64,000 nt of DNA. Source: Fontisphaera persica. Its GTDB lineage: Bacteria > Verrucomicrobiota > Verrucomicrobiia > Limisphaerales > Fontisphaeraceae. Position 1 is the stretch's first letter. Each line of letters starts with the position of its first letter. The stretch lies in NCBI RefSeq assembly GCF_024832785.1, contig NZ_CP116615.1, positions 1,550,001 to 1,614,000 of the forward strand, written 5' to 3'. Below, one piece after another: positions 10,316 to 57,363 of this stretch. A program made the position numbers and the translations under genes. Below the pieces are notes generated by a model. The model saw only the letters and a program-made list of their open reading frames with translations. It made no database searches and was not told the DNA's origin.

Positions 10316-11779
10316 CTAGATGAGGCGTATCTGGCGTTGTTCCCGCTCCAGCGCCTCACTCACGGAAGTCAGCCGTGCCCGGCGCCGCTCCATGATGTTC
10401 TTGTCCAAAGCCGGATCATAGGGAACGGGGTAACGCCCGTCGTAACAGGCCATGCAGAAACAGGAGGCGGGGCGTCCAGTGGCGGCCACCATCCCTGCCT
10501 GGGAAAGGTAATGCAGAGAATCCGCATTGAGGTAGCGGCGGATTTCGTCTTGCGAACAATTGGCCGCCATGAGCTTGCTGCGGTCGGGAAAATCAATGCC
10601 ATAGACACACGGATGCATGTGCGGCGGGCAACTGACCAGCACATGCACTTCGCGCGCGCCGGCCTCTTTCAGATTATGCACCCGGGTGCGGCAGGTCGTG
10701 CCTCGCACAATCGAATCATCCACGATAATCACCCGTTTGTCGCGCACGAGGTCGGGGATGAGATTCAATTTAACCCTCACGTTCATGTCGCGGATTAACT
10801 GGGTGGGTTGCAAAAAGCTGCGGCCAATGTAGTGATTGCGCACAAAGGCCATTTCAAACGGAATGCCACTCTCCAGGGAATACCCCAGCGCGGCGCAATT
10901 GCCGCTGTCCGGCACCGGCACCACGACATCGGCCTCGATGCGGTGTTCGCGCGCCAGTTGGCGGCCCATTTCCACGCGGACTTTGTAAACATTGCGACCC
11001 GCAATGTGGCTGTCCGGCCGCGCAAAATAAACATACTCGAAAATGCAGAAAGCCTCGCGCTGGTGTTCCGGAAAGGCCTGAATGCTTTTCAGCCCCGCCC
11101 GGCTGATGACCACGATTTCTCCCGGCTCCACGTCTCGCAAGTAGCGGGCATGAATTAAATCAAACGCGCACGTCTCACTGGAAAGGACATAAGCGCCGTC
11201 CAGGGTCCCAAGGGCCAGCGGACGGAACCCATGGGGGTCACGCACGCCAATCAATTCATTTTCAGTCAGGATGACCAGTGAGAAGGCCCCCTCGATGCGT
11301 CGCACCGTTTGAATGAGGTTGTTTTCCGCCCCCCCCAGCGAAGGCTGGGCCAGCAGGTGGAGGATGATTTCGCTGTCCACCGTGGTTTGGAAAATGGAGC
11401 CGTGCCCCTCCAGTTGCTCGCGCAAAATGGCGGCATTGGTGAGATTGCCGTTATGGGCAATGCCAATCTGGCCCCGGGCGCAATCCACCGTCAGCGGCTG
11501 CGCATTGCGCAGGTGAGAGGAACCAGTGGTGGAATATCGTGTGTGCCCAATGGCCGCGTGCCCCGTCAGGTGCCGCAACACATCGGCGCCAAACACCTGC
11601 GAGACCAGTCCCATTCCCCGGTGCACATGAAACTGGTGGTTTTCATCGCAGGTGACAATGCCTGCGCTCTCCTGCCCGCGATGCTGCAGGGCATACAATC
11701 CATAGTAGGTTAATTCCGCGGCGTTCGGATGTCCAAAAACGCCGAATACGCCGCAATAATGTTTGGGGTGGTACGGCAT
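10316..11779 (-). CDS. purF: Amidophosphoribosyltransferase
   Basis: A 487-residue enzyme that starts purine synthesis by making phosphoribosylamine from PRPP and glutamine. A propeptide of eight residues precedes the nucleophile Cys9 (YCGVFG). The glutaminase domain shows LQHRGQESAG and GHTRYSTTG. The PRPP-binding loop reads IVDDSIVRGTTCRT. Cysteines at FCIFEYVYFARPDS, in the SCPPHMHPC segment and in CFCMAC near the C terminus match the Fe-S-binding, Bacillus-type class. It stands alone on the minus strand, divergent from the gene at 11939. Confidence 0.97.
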   Translation of the reverse strand: MPYHPKHYCGVFGVFGHPNAAELTYYGLYALQHRGQESAGIVTCDENHQFHVHRGMGLVSQVFGADVLRHLTGHAAIGHTRYSTTGSSHLRNAQPLTVDCARGQIGIAHNGNLTNAAILREQLEGHGSIFQTTVDSEIILHLLAQPSLGGAENNLIQTVRRIEGAFSLVILTENELIGVRDPHGFRPLALGTLDGAYVLSSETCAFDLIHARYLRDVEPGEIVVISRAGLKSIQAFPEHQREAFCIFEYVYFARPDSHIAGRNVYKVRVEMGRQLAREHRIEADVVVPVPDSGNCAALGYSLESGIPFEMAFVRNHYIGRSFLQPTQLIRDMNVRVKLNLIPDLVRDKRVIIVDDSIVRGTTCRTRVHNLKEAGAREVHVLVSCPPHMHPCVYGIDFPDRSKLMAANCSQDEIRRYLNADSLHYLSQAGMVAATGRPASCFCMACYDGRYPVPYDPALDKNIMERRRARLTSVSEALEREQRQIRLI

Positions 11780-11938
11780 AGATGCGTGCCCAATGCCCCC
11801 CTATTCCAACGGCTTTATGCCGCCTGCGCAAGTGCAATTACGCAGCGTTGGCCGCCGGGCGCCATCCGGCGTAATTTTGATTGAATATTTTGCCGCAATA
11901 AGCATCAATTGTTTTGCAGTCCTGTTGCATTAGCCGAC

Positions 11939-12808
11939 ATGAAACCGACGTCCGGCGCCATGCTGCCCAAGTTGTCTGCCGCCCAACGCGAGGCGTTGAT
12001 CAGCCTGTTGGCGGACGACGACCCTGCCATTTACCAGTCCGTGCGGCAAAAGCTGCTGGCTTACGGGCATGAGGCCGCCGATTGGCTGCGCCCGCACCTG
12101 GCCAGCCCCGATCCGCTGCTGCGCCAGCGTGCCAAAAGCATTGTCATCCATTTTGCCCGACAGGATGCGGACAATGAATTTCTCGCCTTCTGCCTCCGGC
12201 AGGGCGACGATTTTGATTTGGAAGAAGGGGCGTGGCTGCTCGCGCGCACCCAGTATGCCGACATTCAAGTCGAAGGCTACCGGGCGTTGCTGGACTATTT
12301 TGCTCAGGAATTGCGGAGTCGCTTCCGGCACAGCACCCATGCCGCGCAAATGCTCGGCGTGATGAACGACTTTTTGTTCGTGGAGGAGCAGTTTCACGGC
12401 AACGAGGAGGATTATTACCATCCGGACAACAGTTACTTAAACCGGGTGATTGACCGCCGGATGGGCAACCCCATTGGTCTGTGCACGGTGTATTTGCTCA
12501 TTGCCCGGCGGTTGAAAATGCCGGTGGCCGGCATCGGTCTGCCGGGGCATTTCATTTGCCGTTACCAGTCGGCCACAGAAGAGATTTACATTGATCCTTT
12601 CAATGGCGGACGGTTGCTGACCAAATCGGATTGTGTGAAATATTTGCACACACATCATCACGGCCTGTATGATGAATTTTTAACCCCGGTTTCCCCGCGG
12701 CGCATGCTTATGCGGATGTGCTCCAACTTGCACCAAATTTACCAGCAAAACCACCAATCCGAAGAAGCCATGCGGTTGCAGCGTTACCTGGTGGCCCTGG
12801 CTCGATAA
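11939..12808 (+). CDS. SirB1 family, transglutaminase-like protein
   Basis: A 289-residue soluble protein. The N-terminal 100 residues are helical, and the family core follows: RRMGNPIGLCTVYLLIARRL, then LPGHFICRY and YIDPFNGGRLLT. These match the SirB1/Transglut_core2 family, where Cys (or Ser), His and Asp positions resemble a papain-like triad; here Cys, His and Asp are all present. The biological role of the family is unclear. I chose ATG 11939 over an upstream TTG that adds ten residues. It is divergent from purF and converges on the sigma-factor gene. Confidence 0.85.
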   Translation: MKPTSGAMLPKLSAAQREALISLLADDDPAIYQSVRQKLLAYGHEAADWLRPHLASPDPLLRQRAKSIVIHFARQDADNEFLAFCLRQGDDFDLEEGAWLLARTQYADIQVEGYRALLDYFAQELRSRFRHSTHAAQMLGVMNDFLFVEEQFHGNEEDYYHPDNSYLNRVIDRRMGNPIGLCTVYLLIARRLKMPVAGIGLPGHFICRYQSATEEIYIDPFNGGRLLTKSDCVKYLHTHHHGLYDEFLTPVSPRRMLMRMCSNLHQIYQQNHQSEEAMRLQRYLVALAR

Positions 12809-12824
12809 GGCCAATCCGGTTATT

Positions 12825-13577
12825 TTAACGCTGAGAGGCAGCCAGTACTTCAATCAAGTAACGGAGTTCCTCCTGCAAATCAGCTCCTTCACTCAACGTT
12901 TGAGCAATCTCCGTCTTCACAGCGTGTCGAAAACGTTTGCGCAGCCGATGCACAGCCACTTTGAAGGCGCTTTCGCTTAACTGCAAACGTTCGGCCGCGG
13001 CCTTGGCGTCCAAGGTGGCCGCTTCCCCCGCCAGCCAGGGTTTCAGCACCGCATAATGGTCCGCGCGCCCTTCTGCTGTCATTTGCCTTTCCAAAGCCGT
13101 CAGGGCACGGGCCATGACCGTCAGGGCCCACTGCCGGTCAAACCAAGTGTCCAGCACAGGTAAAGAGACGGCCTCGGCCGCCATGTCGTGCAAGGTGGCA
13201 AGAGAATCTGAAGATGCGTCCAGAGATTGGATATCTGCTGCTCCCCCGCGTTTTATCCGGGCCTCTTTTCTACGCCGGTCAGTCAGAAAATGCTTCAAAG
13301 CGCCCAATAAATAAGAACGAAAACGACCCTTGGCTGGATCGGCACTATTCATTTGTCCCCCTTGCAGCAGCCGGGCAAAGAATTCATGAGCCAATTCACG
13401 CGCGACGTCTTCTTCATGGCCTTCCCGTTGTAAAAAGCGCACCACCGGTTGATAATAGGCCGCGCACAGTTCATTCAGGGCGGCACGCGCCTCGGGCGTG
13501 GCTCCCTGACTGCGCAGAACCAGCGTCCAGCGCGTCGGACCAAACTCGTGACCGTGTGAACAATGCGAGGGATTCAC
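12825..13577 (-). CDS. ECF RNA polymerase sigma factor
   Basis: A 250-residue sigma factor of the large class common in verrucomicrobia and planctomycetes, opening with FGPTRWTLVLRSQG. Region 2 lies at about residues 38-100 (YYQPVVRFLQREGHEEDVA, then DPAKGRFRSYLLGALKHFL). Region 4 is around residues 195-225, with the helix-turn-helix LSESAFKVAVHRLRKRFR. The GTG start overlaps the TGA stop of the upstream kinase gene in a GTGA arrangement, so the two are translationally coupled. This suggests that the kinase controls this sigma factor. No anti-sigma factor is seen nearby. Confidence 0.9.
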   Translation of the reverse strand: MNPSHCSHGHEFGPTRWTLVLRSQGATPEARAALNELCAAYYQPVVRFLQREGHEEDVARELAHEFFARLLQGGQMNSADPAKGRFRSYLLGALKHFLTDRRRKEARIKRGGAADIQSLDASSDSLATLHDMAAEAVSLPVLDTWFDRQWALTVMARALTALERQMTAEGRADHYAVLKPWLAGEAATLDAKAAAERLQLSESAFKVAVHRLRKRFRHAVKTEIAQTLSEGADLQEELRYLIEVLAASQR

Positions 13578-16500
13578 CGCGTGCTGTTAACGTCGGGCAA
13601 ACGGCTTTCGACCGTCACCTGTATCGGCTTTTGATTTGTCATGGCCCACGAAAAAAGGTCCCGCCGCTCGCCGGCGCGCAAGGTCAAGGTACGCCCCACC
13701 CATAACGTGCGATTGGTTTGCAGTAATTGCCGCGCCACTTTCTCGTCCATCATGGCAGGCAGTCCGACAGTGGCGCGATATGTGACGAGCGGGAGACCCC
13801 CGCCCCCTTCTTTGCGCTCAAACCGGGTGCTGGCAGAGCTGACCCAAGCATCCCGCACCGGACTTTGCAGGCGGAAAACCTCCTGGGCACTGTTGGTATT
13901 AAGCCGGTAATCAAACCCCAGGCAGAACCGCTGGCCTTCCTGCCAAAGAACCACGTCCGTAAAGGTTAAACTGGTCAAAGGCACTTGCGTGACCGGCACG
14001 GCGCCCACCGCCGCCTCCAACAGCATGCCCGCGTCTCCCACCGGCACTCTGAAGATGGGGAGTTCCTTGCCCGGTCGCACCTCCAGAGGCTGTGCCACCA
14101 GGGACACGGCAAGGCTCTGGGCCAGCTCAGCCGCTTGGGGAGCAGATAGATTGACTGGCAGGCGAATCAGCGCTCGTTCGTGGCGCACCGCCACCAGCCC
14201 TGCCACCCCCTCGCGCAAATGAACACGGCGTGTTTCAGTTGCAAATCCATCGGCTTGTGCCCTAAAAATGACCACCCAGTTCGTGTCCAGATTTGCCACG
14301 TAGTCAATCTTCAACCAATGCGCGCTCTCCACTTGGGAAATACCGATTTCCGTAATGGTGAAACGCGCTGCCAGGGTGGCTTCGCCTGGCGTGGCGGGTT
14401 GACTGGTGGCGGCTGCCTGAAGCAGTTCCAATGATTCCTGCCAGTTTGTCCCGCCGCCAATGAGCGGGGATTGACCCATAACCAGGTGACGAAAACGATG
14501 CGCGTAACCCACGCGGAGAAACAAAGTTTCCAACTTGTTGCCGATGCGGGTTTGCCGCCAAGGTATTTCCACATAATCCTGAGCTGGCTGAGGCAAGGGT
14601 ACGCGTAAAGGTGGAGGATTGCCGGGCTGAAACTGGAGGTCACCTAACCGGGCATGGCCCGCCACCACTTCTCGACCGTCCGATGTGCTGATTTTCAAGG
14701 CATACTGGGGATTGCCTCCGGCGGTCTTGGCGTCTTCCGCCAGTTCCAGTTGCAGTTTAGCCGAGACATGCTCGTCATCCGGAGCGACGATAAATCCACC
14801 CAATTCAGGCGCCGAATTGGTTCCCAGGATTAAAATCACCGTGGCCGCCTGGCCTTTGGGCACTTTGAGGTGGACTTCTCCCATCCCCGAACGCTGGTTG
14901 TTTTCCTGATCTCTGCGGGTGGTCGGGTGCAAATGAACGTTTTTGAACTCCGTCCACTGATAAGGACGCACTTCAAAATTGAAGTTTCGGATGTCGCCAA
15001 GGGGGCGTTGGCGAAAAGTTACCTGAAGGTGCCTGTTGGACTCCCGTAACAAACGCCCCACTTCCTTGGTGCCATCGGACAGCGTGGCGGTAATTTGTAT
15101 TTGGAACAAATCCCGCCTGGGACATTCGTAGCTGGCTTGTAACAAAAGGTGGCCGCCTTTGTCCTCCACAGTGCCATGAAAAGCAATTTTCCACGGTATT
15201 GCGTCTAAATACACCGAATAGGAAGAGGAGGCCGCAGAAGAATCCTGGGCTAAGGTGCGCCAAGGCCCCCTGGCCATGCCGGCGTAAATCGTCGTAGTTT
15301 TCCTGTCCACCGGAAACGCCGCGTTCAGGAGGTAAAACATCGAGCCTGCCGTATCCGATGGATTATTAACGGTCTGCCCACTCCAACCACGAGCATCGGG
15401 CAACAATAGACGAGGTCCGGCATCTCCCGGCTCGAACCCATGCAATTCCAGCACCATTTGCACGGTGCGTTCGTCAGGAGAAAGGCTGCGTTGACTCTGT
15501 TCGCCTTTCATTTGCACAGCCGGTGCTGTGTCCACCGGAGAGCCATCCGGCTGCCACCAGTTACCGTCAGTGGGATGGGTGGACAAGGCCGCCAGCTTTA
15601 CCATTCCTTCAGGCAATGGGTCTCCTCTTTGCAGCGGGGAAGGCACTTGACTCATACGCGGAGACCGGAGAAAAAGATAAAAAGAAAAGGGGGTGAACAC
15701 AGCCAACCCAATGACCAGAAAAACCGCAAAAATCCATTTTAGCACTCCCCGCCGTTGCTTGGGCGGCGCGTTGGCGGCCCAACGGCTGGTGGCATAGACC
15801 GCCCATAGAGCAAAAGTCAGGGTGCCTGCGGGCAACAGCCACGCCAGCATCTTCAGGGCAAGGGAAGGCTGCCCGACCACGATATTGGTAAATGGAAAGG
15901 CTACGGCAATGACGGCCAATAACATCAAGGGACAACCCAAAGCCCCATAGACCGCCAGCGGCACCCCCCTCAACCTTCCGCCACCGCTGCGAATATCACT
16001 CAGGGCCACCCATCCTAAAATGGTCCCCGCCATCCCAGCCAGGCATGCCGGCCCGCCAAATACAAGCAATTCCATAAGCCCTAAACCGCCCCCACCAGCC
16101 AAGACCAAAATCAAAGGCACGCTCACCAGCACCCACGCCAGACCAGTCAATGCCGCACTGATGATGGCCTTCATGGAATACTTGGGCGACGAGGATACGA
16201 CTGTGCCGCCGGGACCAACCATCGGCGCAATCGAAGATTGAAAGAAGATGGCGCGACGTTCCTTGCGTCTGCGCCAAAACAACCATCCGCCCACCCAAAG
16301 GCCCGGCAGCAGCGCCAGGAGATAGGGAAGCAGGTCTTCTATATACCCCCCCGGCGGACGCCCTTTAAGAGCGGAAGCAAAAATGATGGGCAAAATCGAG
16401 CACACCCCTAAAACCAAAAAGAAATAGACATGCCGGGGCGCAAAGCGCGAAGCCGGCATCTGCAGCTCGCGCGCGGGTATTTCCGGGGGCAACGAACCCG

Positions 16501-51939: not shown

Positions 51940-52472
51940 TCAAGGTCCACGGCGTGCCCAGGCGGGCATGCGCACCTCCGCGGCAGGGGGAAAGTCCTGA
52001 AGGGTAAGAGGCTTGAGATCCAACAGAGGACTCCCATCAAAGGCATCCAAACGATCCACTTCCACCACGCAGCCTTTCACCGCGACGATTTTGCAAAAGG
52101 TTAGCGCAATTAAATTGGGACGAAAGGGAGAGCGGCACGCAAACACGCCAGTTAGCGGATTCTCACGATTACCCCGGGGATGAACTTGCAACCGGCGGCG
52201 AAGTTCAGGAGTGTCATTTTGGTCCAGCCAATAGAATACCAGCACGTGGGACCATTCGTTCAATCCCAGGAGACCATCTTTGTATTCCTCATCCAGACGA
52301 AGGTAGTGCTTGCCTTCTCTGCTCTCGCAAGCGCCTATCGGGCGCAACTCCAATTTTTTGTGCGCTGGCGCTTTAACCGAAGGTTGCCCGGAAGAGGGAG
52401 TGCGGCAACGGCCGTCACCGCACTGCCAGTTAGACCGCCCAAGGCGGTTTTCATAAAACGGCGGCGCGGCAT
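51940..52472 (-). CDS. TrmO-fold (UPF0066) protein with frame-split Tat signal
   Basis: The enzyme domain, in one frame, starts KKLELRPIGACES and includes NEWSHVLVFYWLDQN, GVFACRSPFRPNLIALTF and DAFDGSPLLDLKP, the TrmO tRNA-methyltransferase signatures, with Cys for Thr in TRSP. No ATG lies in that frame near its start. A different frame starting ATG 52472 encodes MPRRRFMKTALGGLTGSAV, a Tat signal, with AAGGAA eight bases before it. That frame stops at TAG 52335-52337. The frames meet at A-AAA-AAT (52359-52353), where a -1 shift gives one continuous protein. Real frameshifting, a one-base deletion, or a sequencing error would all look like this. Confidence 0.6.
52353..52359 (-). promoter_or_regulatory. 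Candidate -1 slippery heptamer A-AAA-AAT
   Basis: In the Tat-signal frame the codons are ACA AAA AAT, so the heptamer A AAA AAT has the right phase for tandem -1 slippage. Slipping puts the ribosome onto AAA TTG GAG TTG, the start of the TrmO domain. A stop follows in the unshifted frame 15 bases after the heptamer. I did not find a clear stimulatory stem-loop or upstream Shine-Dalgarno by eye. Confidence 0.4.
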
Positions 52473-52480
52473 GTTTCGTT

Positions 52481-52486
52481 TTCCTT
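52481..52486 (-). promoter_or_regulatory. Ribosome-binding site setting the Tat-signal start
   Basis: AAGGAA on the minus strand lies eight bases before ATG 52472. It decides the start in favour of the Tat-signal frame over the TTG/GTG starts further upstream in the TrmO frame. Confidence 0.55.
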
Positions 52487-53740: not shown

Positions 53741-53838
53741 ATCACTTTGTTTGGCACGAATCGGGAGGCGCGCCAAGCTGAATTTCAGTTCTTGTTGCCA
53801 GCCTGTGGAGGTTGGGGCAAACTTGGCTAAAACAGCAC

Positions 53839-56800
53839 ATGAAGCAACTCTGGCTATGCGCTGCAGTTTGGGCTGGTGTCTGCCTGACTGCCGAAGCTGT
53901 TAATTTACCAGCCACACCGCAAAAACCGGTGGTGGACCATTACCACGGGCAGGCCATTTCCGACCCTTATCAATGGTTGGAGGATGGCCAAAATCCCGAA
54001 GTCCGGCAATGGACAGAAGCCCAAAACGCCGCCGCGCGCGCCTACCTCGATGCCCTGCCGGAAAGACCTTGGATTGAACGCCGCCTGCGTCAACTGCTCC
54101 AGGTGGAAAAGCCCTCCTACTATGGCCTGCAATGGGCCGGTGGCAGACTCTTTGCCCTGCGCTTTCAACCGCCCCGGCAACAACCGGAACTCGTCTTTAT
54201 GGCCGGGCCGGATGATACCAACGGCATTCGTGTCATTTTGGACCTCAATCGCTTCGATGCCCGCGGTCGCACAAGCATGGATTTTTACGCGCCCTCACCC
54301 GATGGCAAAATTGTTGCCGTTTGTCTCTCAGAAAATGGCAGTGAAGTGGGAACCCTTCATTTTTTTACGGTGGATAATGGGCGCAAAATGTCTGATGTCC
54401 TTCCACGTGTCCAGTACCCCACCGGTGGCGGCAGTGTGGCGTGGGATAACGCCAGCCAGGGGGTGTTTTACACGCGCTATCCAGCCCCCGGCGAACGGCC
54501 TGAGTCTGACCTCGCTTTTTACCAACAAGTCTATTATCACCGCCTGGGCGAGCCACTGGACAAGGACCGTTATGAAATCGGCCGCGATTTCCCACGCATT
54601 GCGGAAATTGATTTGAGCAGTGGTCCTGGTGGCTGGATTCTGGCCACCGTGGCCAACGGGGATGGAGGAGAATATGCGCATTATCTGCGCAACCCTGCCG
54701 GCCCATGGCTGCAAGTCACCCGTTTTGAAGACAAAATCAAGCAAGCCCAATTTGGCCGTGACCCCCTCTACGTGGAATGGCCGCGGGACGATGGCCTTTA
54801 TCTACTGTCTTTTGAAGGCGCCCCACGCGGCAAAATACTCCGGGTATCCCTTCGCAACCCCACGCTGGCGCAGGCCCAAACAGTCGTAGAGGAACATGAA
54901 CGTTACGTCATCCAAGGCTTCGCCCCATCGGCCAGCGGGTTATATGTGCATTACCTGGTGGGGGGCCCTTCGCGACTGGTTTGGTGGGATGCCTTCACCG
55001 GCAACCGCCTGAATGTTCCACTCCGGGCGGCGGACTTGGGTGGTGTCCCTGCTGCTGTGCAACAAATGTTGGTGGCCCGTGGTGACGAGCTTCTTTACCG
55101 CTCCGCCTCTTATATCCATCCACCGGCCTGGCAGGTGTATAACCCTGCGCTTTCGCGCACAACCGCGCGCATGACTGCCCTGCAGGAGGAAACTCCTGAG
55201 GACTACGACGACACCCAGGTCAGCCGGGTGGAAGTCACCTCCAAGGACGGCACCAAAATTCCCTTGAACATTTTGCATCTTAAAGGCCTCCGGCTGAATG
55301 GCGAGCTGCCCGCACTGCTGACCGGTTACGGCGGTTATGGCATCAGTCTGCAACCCTCCTTTGACCCGGCCCGTCGGCTCTGGCTGGAACAGGGTGGTGT
55401 ATGGGCGGTGGCCAATCTGCGGGGCGGCGGTGAGTTTGGCGAGCCGTGGCATCAATCCGGCCAGCTTACGAACAAACAAAATGTGTTTGATGATTTTATC
55501 GCCTGCGCCGAATGGCTTATCCGCAGTAATTACACGCGGGCGGACCGCCTGGTCATTCGTGGGGGCAGCAACGGTGGTTTGCTCATGGGCGCAGCACTCA
55601 CCCAGCGGCCAGATTTATTCGCGGGGGTCATTGCCCAGGTGGGCATCTTCGACATGCTGCGTGTGGAACGCGATCCCAACGGCGTATTTAACACCACCGA
55701 GTTTGGCACGGTGCAAAACCGCCTGCACTTCGAGGCCTTGTATGCCTACAGCCCTTATCATCGGGTGCGTGACGGCGTGCAATACCCCGCCGTTTTGTTG
55801 ACCACCGGCTGGCATGATGGCCGCGTAAATCCGGCCCATTCGCGTAAAATGGCCGCCCGCCTGCAAGCCACGGGCAGCCAGGCGCCGGTCCTTTTGCGCA
55901 CCAGTTTCACCACCGGCCACGGCTTGGGCTCTGCGTTTAATGACCGGGTGGCAGAGCTGGCGGATGTCTATGCCTTTGCCGTGCGCCACAGCGGCATGAA
56001 ATACTCAGCCATCTTGCGCGGCCCCTGGTCAGGCGCAGTCACGACCACCAGCGTTTGGGTCAAAGCGCGGCTTCTGGATGAAGGCCTGAATGCGCGCCTG
56101 GTGGTCAGCCGCCACCCTGATTTTTCCGAACCGGTCTATTCCGCCCCTGACCGCTCTCGCAGCGCAAACCACAACCTGGTGGGTTTCCGGTTGGGCAACC
56201 TCTCGCCCAACACACGGTATTACTACGCTTTGGAAATTGACGGGCGTCTCGACACGGTACGCACAGGTCAATTCCGCACCTTCCCCGCCGGCCCATCCTC
56301 CTTCACCATCGCCTGGGGCACCTGTGCGCGCACGGGTAGCACCAGCGACGTCTTTGATCGCATTCGAGAGCATCAGCCGTTGATCTTCATCAATGCTGGC
56401 GATTTCCATTACCTTGACATTAGTGTCAACAGTGTCCGGCGTTTTCGCGCGGCATATGATCGGGTGCTGGCCTCACCCCAACAGGCCGAGTTGTATCGGG
56501 CCATTCCTTTCGCCTATGTATGGGATGACCACGACTTCGGCGGCAACAATTGCAACAAAAACACGCCCTCCCGGCCCGCCGCCCGCCAGGTGTACCAGGA
56601 ATATGTGCCCCACTATCCCCTGATGGCAGGACGGGGTGATGTTCCGATTTATCAATCATTCGACATCGGCCGGGTCAAGTTCCTGCTCACCGATTGCCGC
56701 TCCGAGCGGGACCCGGTTAACTTGCCGGACAATGAAAAGAAATCCATGCTCGGCCTCCGCCAAAAAACCTGGCTCAAGCAACAACTGCTGCAGGCCAAGG

Positions 56801-57363
56801 ACAAATACCCGCTCATCGTTTGGGTGGGCAGCGTAGGCTGGCTGGGTGAACGAGGAACCAACTATTATCCCCTGCTGAGCACCAATCAATATGGTCTGTT
56901 CAAACATGAGGAACTGCTGGAAGCCGCCCGCGCCGCCATCGCGCGAGGGCGCCGCCTGCCCCCGCCATCTGACCAGGAACACTGGTGTGCTTATACCACG
57001 GAGCGCAGAGAAATAGCCAATTTCATCAAGGACAACCAAATTCGTGGCGTGATTTACCTGCACGGGGATGCGCACAGTCTGTCGGCCGATGACGGGCGGA
57101 ACGGTGATTACGCCACCGGCGGCGGCGCCCCCATTCCCAGCATGGGTGCTGCCCCGCTGGACAAGGAACCCTCCATTAAAGGCGGCCCCTTCAGTCATCA
57201 TGTCTATCGGCCGCGGCCGCCGGAAGGTTGTTTTGGGCTTCTACACGTGGAAGACCTCGGCGAACAAATCCGGGTGACCTTCAGTGGCCGCAACAACAAA
57301 GACGAGGAAAAAATCCGCCTGTCTTTTGCTGTGCCCGCCCAACCTGCTCCTGCCGTCCCATGA
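53839..57363 (+). CDS. Prolyl oligopeptidase - PhoD phosphatase fusion
   Basis: A 1174-residue exported protein (signal MKQLWLCAAVWAGVCLTAEA). Residues about 25-710 are a complete S9A prolyl oligopeptidase: propeller, then the Ser in RGGSNGGLLMGAAL, Asp in GWHDGRVNP and His in TTGHGLG. Residues about 715-1165 are a PhoD-type phosphodiesterase/phosphatase with GTCARTGS, INAGDFHYLD, YVWDDHDFGGNN and YLHGDAHSL, the metal-binding set. The join has no stop, no signal peptide and no long linker. Both halves look catalytically intact. It ends in an ATGA overlap with the next gene. Confidence 0.9.
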   Translation: MKQLWLCAAVWAGVCLTAEAVNLPATPQKPVVDHYHGQAISDPYQWLEDGQNPEVRQWTEAQNAAARAYLDALPERPWIERRLRQLLQVEKPSYYGLQWAGGRLFALRFQPPRQQPELVFMAGPDDTNGIRVILDLNRFDARGRTSMDFYAPSPDGKIVAVCLSENGSEVGTLHFFTVDNGRKMSDVLPRVQYPTGGGSVAWDNASQGVFYTRYPAPGERPESDLAFYQQVYYHRLGEPLDKDRYEIGRDFPRIAEIDLSSGPGGWILATVANGDGGEYAHYLRNPAGPWLQVTRFEDKIKQAQFGRDPLYVEWPRDDGLYLLSFEGAPRGKILRVSLRNPTLAQAQTVVEEHERYVIQGFAPSASGLYVHYLVGGPSRLVWWDAFTGNRLNVPLRAADLGGVPAAVQQMLVARGDELLYRSASYIHPPAWQVYNPALSRTTARMTALQEETPEDYDDTQVSRVEVTSKDGTKIPLNILHLKGLRLNGELPALLTGYGGYGISLQPSFDPARRLWLEQGGVWAVANLRGGGEFGEPWHQSGQLTNKQNVFDDFIACAEWLIRSNYTRADRLVIRGGSNGGLLMGAALTQRPDLFAGVIAQVGIFDMLRVERDPNGVFNTTEFGTVQNRLHFEALYAYSPYHRVRDGVQYPAVLLTTGWHDGRVNPAHSRKMAARLQATGSQAPVLLRTSFTTGHGLGSAFNDRVAELADVYAFAVRHSGMKYSAILRGPWSGAVTTTSVWVKARLLDEGLNARLVVSRHPDFSEPVYSAPDRSRSANHNLVGFRLGNLSPNTRYYYALEIDGRLDTVRTGQFRTFPAGPSSFTIAWGTCARTGSTSDVFDRIREHQPLIFINAGDFHYLDISVNSVRRFRAAYDRVLASPQQAELYRAIPFAYVWDDHDFGGNNCNKNTPSRPAARQVYQEYVPHYPLMAGRGDVPIYQSFDIGRVKFLLTDCRSERDPVNLPDNEKKSMLGLRQKTWLKQQLLQAKDKYPLIVWVGSVGWLGERGTNYYPLLSTNQYGLFKHEELLEAARAAIARGRRLPPPSDQEHWCAYTTERREIANFIKDNQIRGVIYLHGDAHSLSADDGRNGDYATGGGAPIPSMGAAPLDKEPSIKGGPFSHHVYRPRPPEGCFGLLHVEDLGEQIRVTFSGRNNKDEEKIRLSFAVPAQPAPAVP

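Follow-up and report, generated by a model that had tools for sequence, protein, structure and literature searches.

Is the locus described here one gene, a gene read by slipping ribosomes, or two genes that merely lie side by side? On the minus strand of the 64,000-nt stretch of Fontisphaera persica DNA that was analysed (the window), a Tat-like signal peptide is followed by a TrmO-fold domain in a different reading frame, and the two meet at a run of As (Table 1). We consider it probable that the locus is a single gene, composed of a Tat leader and a loop-less TrmO-fold domain, which belongs to a putatively exported TrmO-like family and has been put out of frame by the loss of a single base. 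The interest of the locus lies in the family behind the break and not in the frame break.

Table 1. Features of the TrmO-like gene, in window positions.
Feature	Position	Strand	Remark	Basis
Ribosome-binding site AAGGAA	52481..52486	-	8 nt upstream of ATG 52472	sequence
Tat-like leader frame (RRRFMK motif and hydrophobic stretch)	52335..52472	-		sequence; in-frame Tat leaders of relatives
Run of six As at the junction of the frames (A AAA AAT)	52354..52359	-	probable site of one-base loss	
TrmO-fold domain, loop-less form	51940..52353	-	frame -1 relative to the leader	Pfam TrmO_N, 4e-25

Leader, domain and junction

The sequence-only reading had described a Tat-type signal with a ribosome-binding site and, one base out of frame, a TrmO domain; the coordinates it gave for these proved exact. 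The leader frame has 45 codons, running from the ATG to a TAG at 52337-52335, and its translation begins MPRRRFMKTALGGLTGSAVTAVAALPLPGN. An RRxFLK-like motif together with a weakly hydrophobic stretch is the mark of a Tat substrate. The leader carries PRRRFMK, which matches this motif, and a stretch of 12 residues with a mean KD of 1.72. An open TrmO frame extends from 52560 to a TGA at 51942-51940. Six As were counted in the run at the meeting of the frames, and they lie in the leader-frame phase that had been claimed for them, the right one for −1 slippage.

TrmO (also YaeB or TsaA; PF01980 TrmO_N, TIGR00104) is a class VIII AdoMet methyltransferase that makes m6t6A37 in tRNA. The window domain, assigned by Pfam to the TrmO_N beta-barrel, is the sole TrmO_N match in the 4.73-Mb single-contig genome, and the same search across the whole contig found no canonical TrmO copy. 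The domain is undecayed: it departs from the family at 1 of the 30 columns that are conserved in 90% of members, a value equal to the family median.

Relatives and their leaders

Both leader and domain have counterparts in relatives, where the two share one frame. The window domain had matches in 9 of 58 relatives (its own genome included), and the two closest, at 52–53% identity, bore a signal-like leader in frame with the domain. The gene is sparse, with a family member (E up to 1e-35) in 9 of 388 relatives, its own genome again included. Of 104 loci confirmed in a scan of species genomes, the best 80 fell in Planctomycetota, Verrucomicrobiota, Pseudomonadota, delta-type bacteria and others.

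Leaders were scored with a rule devised here, which requires a start codon, a 12-residue stretch with a mean KD of at least 1.5, and no net negative charge before that stretch. By this rule, 64 of the 81 scored rows had an in-frame leader, and four more loci just under the cut-off (L021, L022, L033 and L036; 1.38–1.47) carried plain Tat leaders by eye. The 81 rows count L096, a copy of L040, beside L040 itself; L049 (core pattern missing), L081 (contig end) and L091 (broken) were unscored. Hydrophobicity alone reached at least 1.5 in the true frame of 65 of the 81 rows vs. 21 of 81 for the better of the two wrong frames. Canonical TrmO proteins were put through the same rule as a control: none of 48 passed, and in 47 of them a start codon lay no more than 14 codons from the domain (48 of 54 candidates were scored, representing 47 distinct genes; six were unscorable or left out).

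Fusions of Tat signal and TrmO domain in one frame, which the sequence-only reading had proposed to seek by BLAST, do exist. A Tat motif of the form SRR or RRR was found by eye in 11 loci (L016, L018, L019, L021, L022, L024, L026, L030, L031, L033 and L036); the regular expression for the motif also catches RR in some Sec-like leaders. In-frame leaders were present in three additional relatives, L212, L213 and a plasmid gene of Allochromatium vinosum described below. Export is not universal in the family, since eight scored rows and L049 are leader-less (L041, L043, L047, L049, L053, L054, L058, L060 and L064); these come mostly from sulfate-reducer-type assemblies. A canonical TrmO was encoded alongside a family member in 24 of 42 genomes (profile coverage from position 1–3; G061 and G460 are one genome). 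The Gln loop of these canonical proteins was recognized by pattern in 21 of the 24 and by eye in L013 of G041, and those of G448 and G450 were assigned by profile coverage alone.

A domain-only tree, built with IQ-TREE, covered 93 rows and 136 columns; the columns are few and many forks are open. Two duplicates, L003 (a copy of L029) and L096, were left out of the tree and of the residue counts given below. The family stood apart from nine of the ten canonical rows at 100/100, and the tenth, L098, fell inside it on a very long branch (2.09). The latter, from G147, is a loop-less TrmO-like protein with no obvious leader and is possibly a further divergent form. The window domain, on a long end branch (0.65), grouped at 99/81 with L019, L021 and L026, all three of which have in-frame Tat leaders, and the eight leader-less rows clustered elsewhere at 93/88. 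Domain kinship thus predicts a Tat leader for the window gene, so that the presence of one in the other frame is more than chance.

Cause of the frame break

The frame break itself is most likely ordinary and matters little. The ancestral gene would have been read straight through leader and domain, and one base would then have dropped from the A-run, either in the cell, giving a recent and perhaps leaky pseudogene, or in the assembly. Such a one-base loss, by mutation or assembly error, is probably what separated the frames. A single missing A had been offered as a caveat to the sequence-only reading and is now the best account of the break. An indel, too, would be expected at a homopolymer.

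The alternatives differ in how the two frames would be used. Programmed −1 ribosomal (or transcriptional) slippage at A AAA AAT would give an exported fusion, with only a short leader peptide made when no slip occurs. The slippery heptamer is present in the right phase, a 5-bp GC-rich hairpin begins 8 nt past the A-run and its following T, and the domain is undecayed, all of which would suit this mechanism. The heptamer alone, however, is weak evidence: A-runs of six or more have a density of 0.62 per kb over the two strands together, there were 653 XXXYYYZ heptamers (Y = A/T) in 248 kb of strand, and by our own arithmetic about 0.1 in-phase heptamers are expected by chance in the 138-nt overlap. 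Most relatives hold leader and domain in one frame and need no slippage, and the site is not conserved among them, the A-run being absent at the seven nearest junctions printed (L019, L021, L026, L015, L027, L014 and L025). The 70 nt downstream fold no better than shuffled sequence (z −0.24; 72 of 200 shuffles fold as well) and offer the one 5-bp hairpin only, and two further frame-broken members, L070 and L091, break at sites other than that of the window. Programmed frameshifting was rejected on these grounds, and we regard it as quite improbable. What stands of the sequence-only reading is that leader and domain form one gene and that Tat-TrmO proteins exist in a single frame; its slippage is not supported.

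Translation of the TrmO frame by itself, from TTG 52353 or coupled to the leader frame, would instead yield a cytosolic protein. The open frame, the intact domain and its being the only TrmO_N match of the genome would fit such a product, as would the leader-less members of the family, but those members form a separate tree group and the nearest kin of the window gene carry Tat leaders. No ribosome-binding site was seen upstream of TTG 52353, and we hold this reading to be improbable. A chance adjacency of the Tat-like peptide and an unrelated TrmO domain, which would fit their differing frames, is extremely improbable. The leader is the one that domain kinship predicts. The sequence-only reading had named relatives with an unconnected signal and domain as a refutation, and relatives that have both parts in one frame contradict this. 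We retain the reading of a single gene with a base probably lost from the A-run.

The quality of the assembly was assessed by comparing the window's genome (G000) with another genome of the same genus (G001). A first pass over the window and a further 60 kb covered 54 G001 reading frames with a homologue and gave four apparent splits, three of them in G000 and the fourth in G001; by eye, these were spurious frames or frame extensions. The second pass used more stretches and stricter identity (79 comparisons, 38,819 aa). It returned four split rows in G000, of which one was a case already judged spurious and three belonged to one gene (G001:C9:94121-96124); in the reverse direction, no splits in G001 were found in the 79 comparisons. 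No second single-base break in G000 was found among these 79 gene comparisons, a small sample, so that a high assembly error rate is not shown and the idea of an indel-rich assembly was set aside. Decayed genes do exist in G000. G001 has no TrmO-like gene: its matches to the genes flanking that of the window lie 136 nt apart, and no TrmO remnant was found there by tblastn.

Several broken genes were seen along the way. The G001 gene at C9:94121-96124 (667 codons) has its G000 matches spread over several frames, none of which spans the full length: the counterpart at L176, about 11680-13660 (G000:C1 about 2609680-2611660), is a multi-lesion broken gene. In L070 and L091, the frame is lost just upstream of the TrmO domain. 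L070 has a degenerate leader and shares its assembly with L052, a family member whose leader is in frame. L091 is broken near T7 and G7 runs and again where the domain starts.

Pocket, location and possible role

A structure predicted for the window domain had a mean pLDDT of 78.9, with low values in the centre, and matched the TrmO structures 2nv4, 7btz, 3okx and 1xqb. The best solved match by both sequence and fold was the archaeal YaeB AF0241 (PDB 2nv4), which is also without the C-terminal domain but, unlike the family, has kept the Gln22 loop; we know of no leader on AF0241. According to Kimura et al. (2014; PMC4132733), Gln22, Arg82, Asp111 and Lys122 are the AdoMet contacts in A. fulgidus, and the C-terminal DPRxxY domain is needed in E. 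coli and present in gamma/beta-proteobacteria and mammals. The same source suggests that archaeal TrmO members may have another target.

The AdoMet contacts were mapped onto the family through alignment to A. fulgidus numbering. All 83 rows keep Asp111 and Lys122, and 65 keep Arg82; the other 18, including all eight scored leader-less members, have His in its place. The window domain carries all three residues. In the window and the family rows printed, the alignment shows a gap at the Gln22 loop, and the spacing from PIG to RPN is 72–74 in the family rows scored vs. 82–89 in most canonical rows. The loop was judged by alignment and by this spacing; a pattern search for the Gln also catches KYQ further on. 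The C-terminal DPRxxY domain is absent, the window protein ending after the barrel. An alignment of 48 rows had 18 invariant columns, among them W45, N49, D50, R55 and H61 of the window domain.

The window gene and its family resemble TrmO in fold, in the TrmO_N profile and in three AdoMet contacts, and differ from it in an export leader, in a short mid-domain insert (RNDTPEKR), in the lack of the Gln22 loop and, for the window, in the lack of the C-terminal domain. With the NCBI model TIGR00104, the window scored 93.2 bits, 0.05 bits under the equivalog cut-off of 93.25, and the signal-bearing L019 (108.3) and L089 (96.4) and the leader-less L041 (116) scored over it and so take the name TrmO. 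The A. vinosum DSM 180 gene, ALVIN_RS16090 on plasmid pALVIN01 (WP_012972392.1), is annotated as TrmO; it is 51.3% identical over 82% of the query, is likewise loop-less, and has a hydrophobic leader that is in frame with the domain. Unlike in the window gene, its frame is intact, and its leader looks Sec-type by eye.

Some members join the domain to other parts in one frame. In L023 (2380-3387, a Sumerlaeota assembly), a signal precedes Ecotin, a protease inhibitor (1.5e-36), and TrmO_N, and in L040 (2131-3414), a signal precedes a GDSL hydrolase and TrmO_N. Leaders, and fusions with exported partners such as ecotin, point to work outside the cytoplasm. Tat would carry the intact protein across the inner membrane, where it may act as a TrmO-type beta-barrel, probably a dimer by analogy with the solved TrmO structures. 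The pocket keeps residues that contact the AdoMet carboxylate and part of its amino group, so its ligand is probably AdoMet or some other small molecule that bears an amino acid. Of the steps in this scheme, ligand and reaction are the weakest, and we propose them tentatively.

The sequence evidence for an exported TrmO-fold variant family is good, and the family is perhaps unremarked; no paper on an exported TrmO was found in the open-licence literature. We read its members as exported proteins that would not modify tRNA, because tRNA is in another compartment; they also lack the Gln loop and the C-terminal DPRxxY domain. The conserved Asp and Lys, and the Arg kept in most rows, would be compatible with an ordinary AdoMet enzyme as well, which counts against this reading. 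In databases these proteins go under the name tRNA methyltransferase TrmO, yet predicted export leaders are present on most of the members scored here and exported fusion partners on some. This would mean that a methyltransferase fold has taken on a role beyond the inner membrane, where AdoMet is not known to be made, or else that the pocket has come to bind a different ligand. In a speculative and rather unlikely extension, the class VIII (TrmO) AdoMet fold would act outside the cytoplasm in several phyla, with the conserved amino-acid end of its pocket binding AdoMet or a similar compound there, be it to transfer methyl groups, to sense or to scavenge. Location and ligand are directly testable, since a cultured organism, A. 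vinosum DSM 180, has a member.

No recurrent neighbour gene pointing to function was found. In the largest neighbour cluster (20 loci), many members are frames antisense to the TrmO gene itself, and the other shared neighbours are restricted to 3–6 loci. Two other domain arrangements were observed, a long N-terminal part without a Pfam name joined to TrmO_N in L046 (736-2721), and a signal with TrmO_N and HEAT repeats in L029 (2896-4128). Elsewhere in the window, a 1183-codon frame on the plus strand (53812-57363) resembles, by eye, a prolyl-oligopeptidase joined to a PhoD-like phosphatase.
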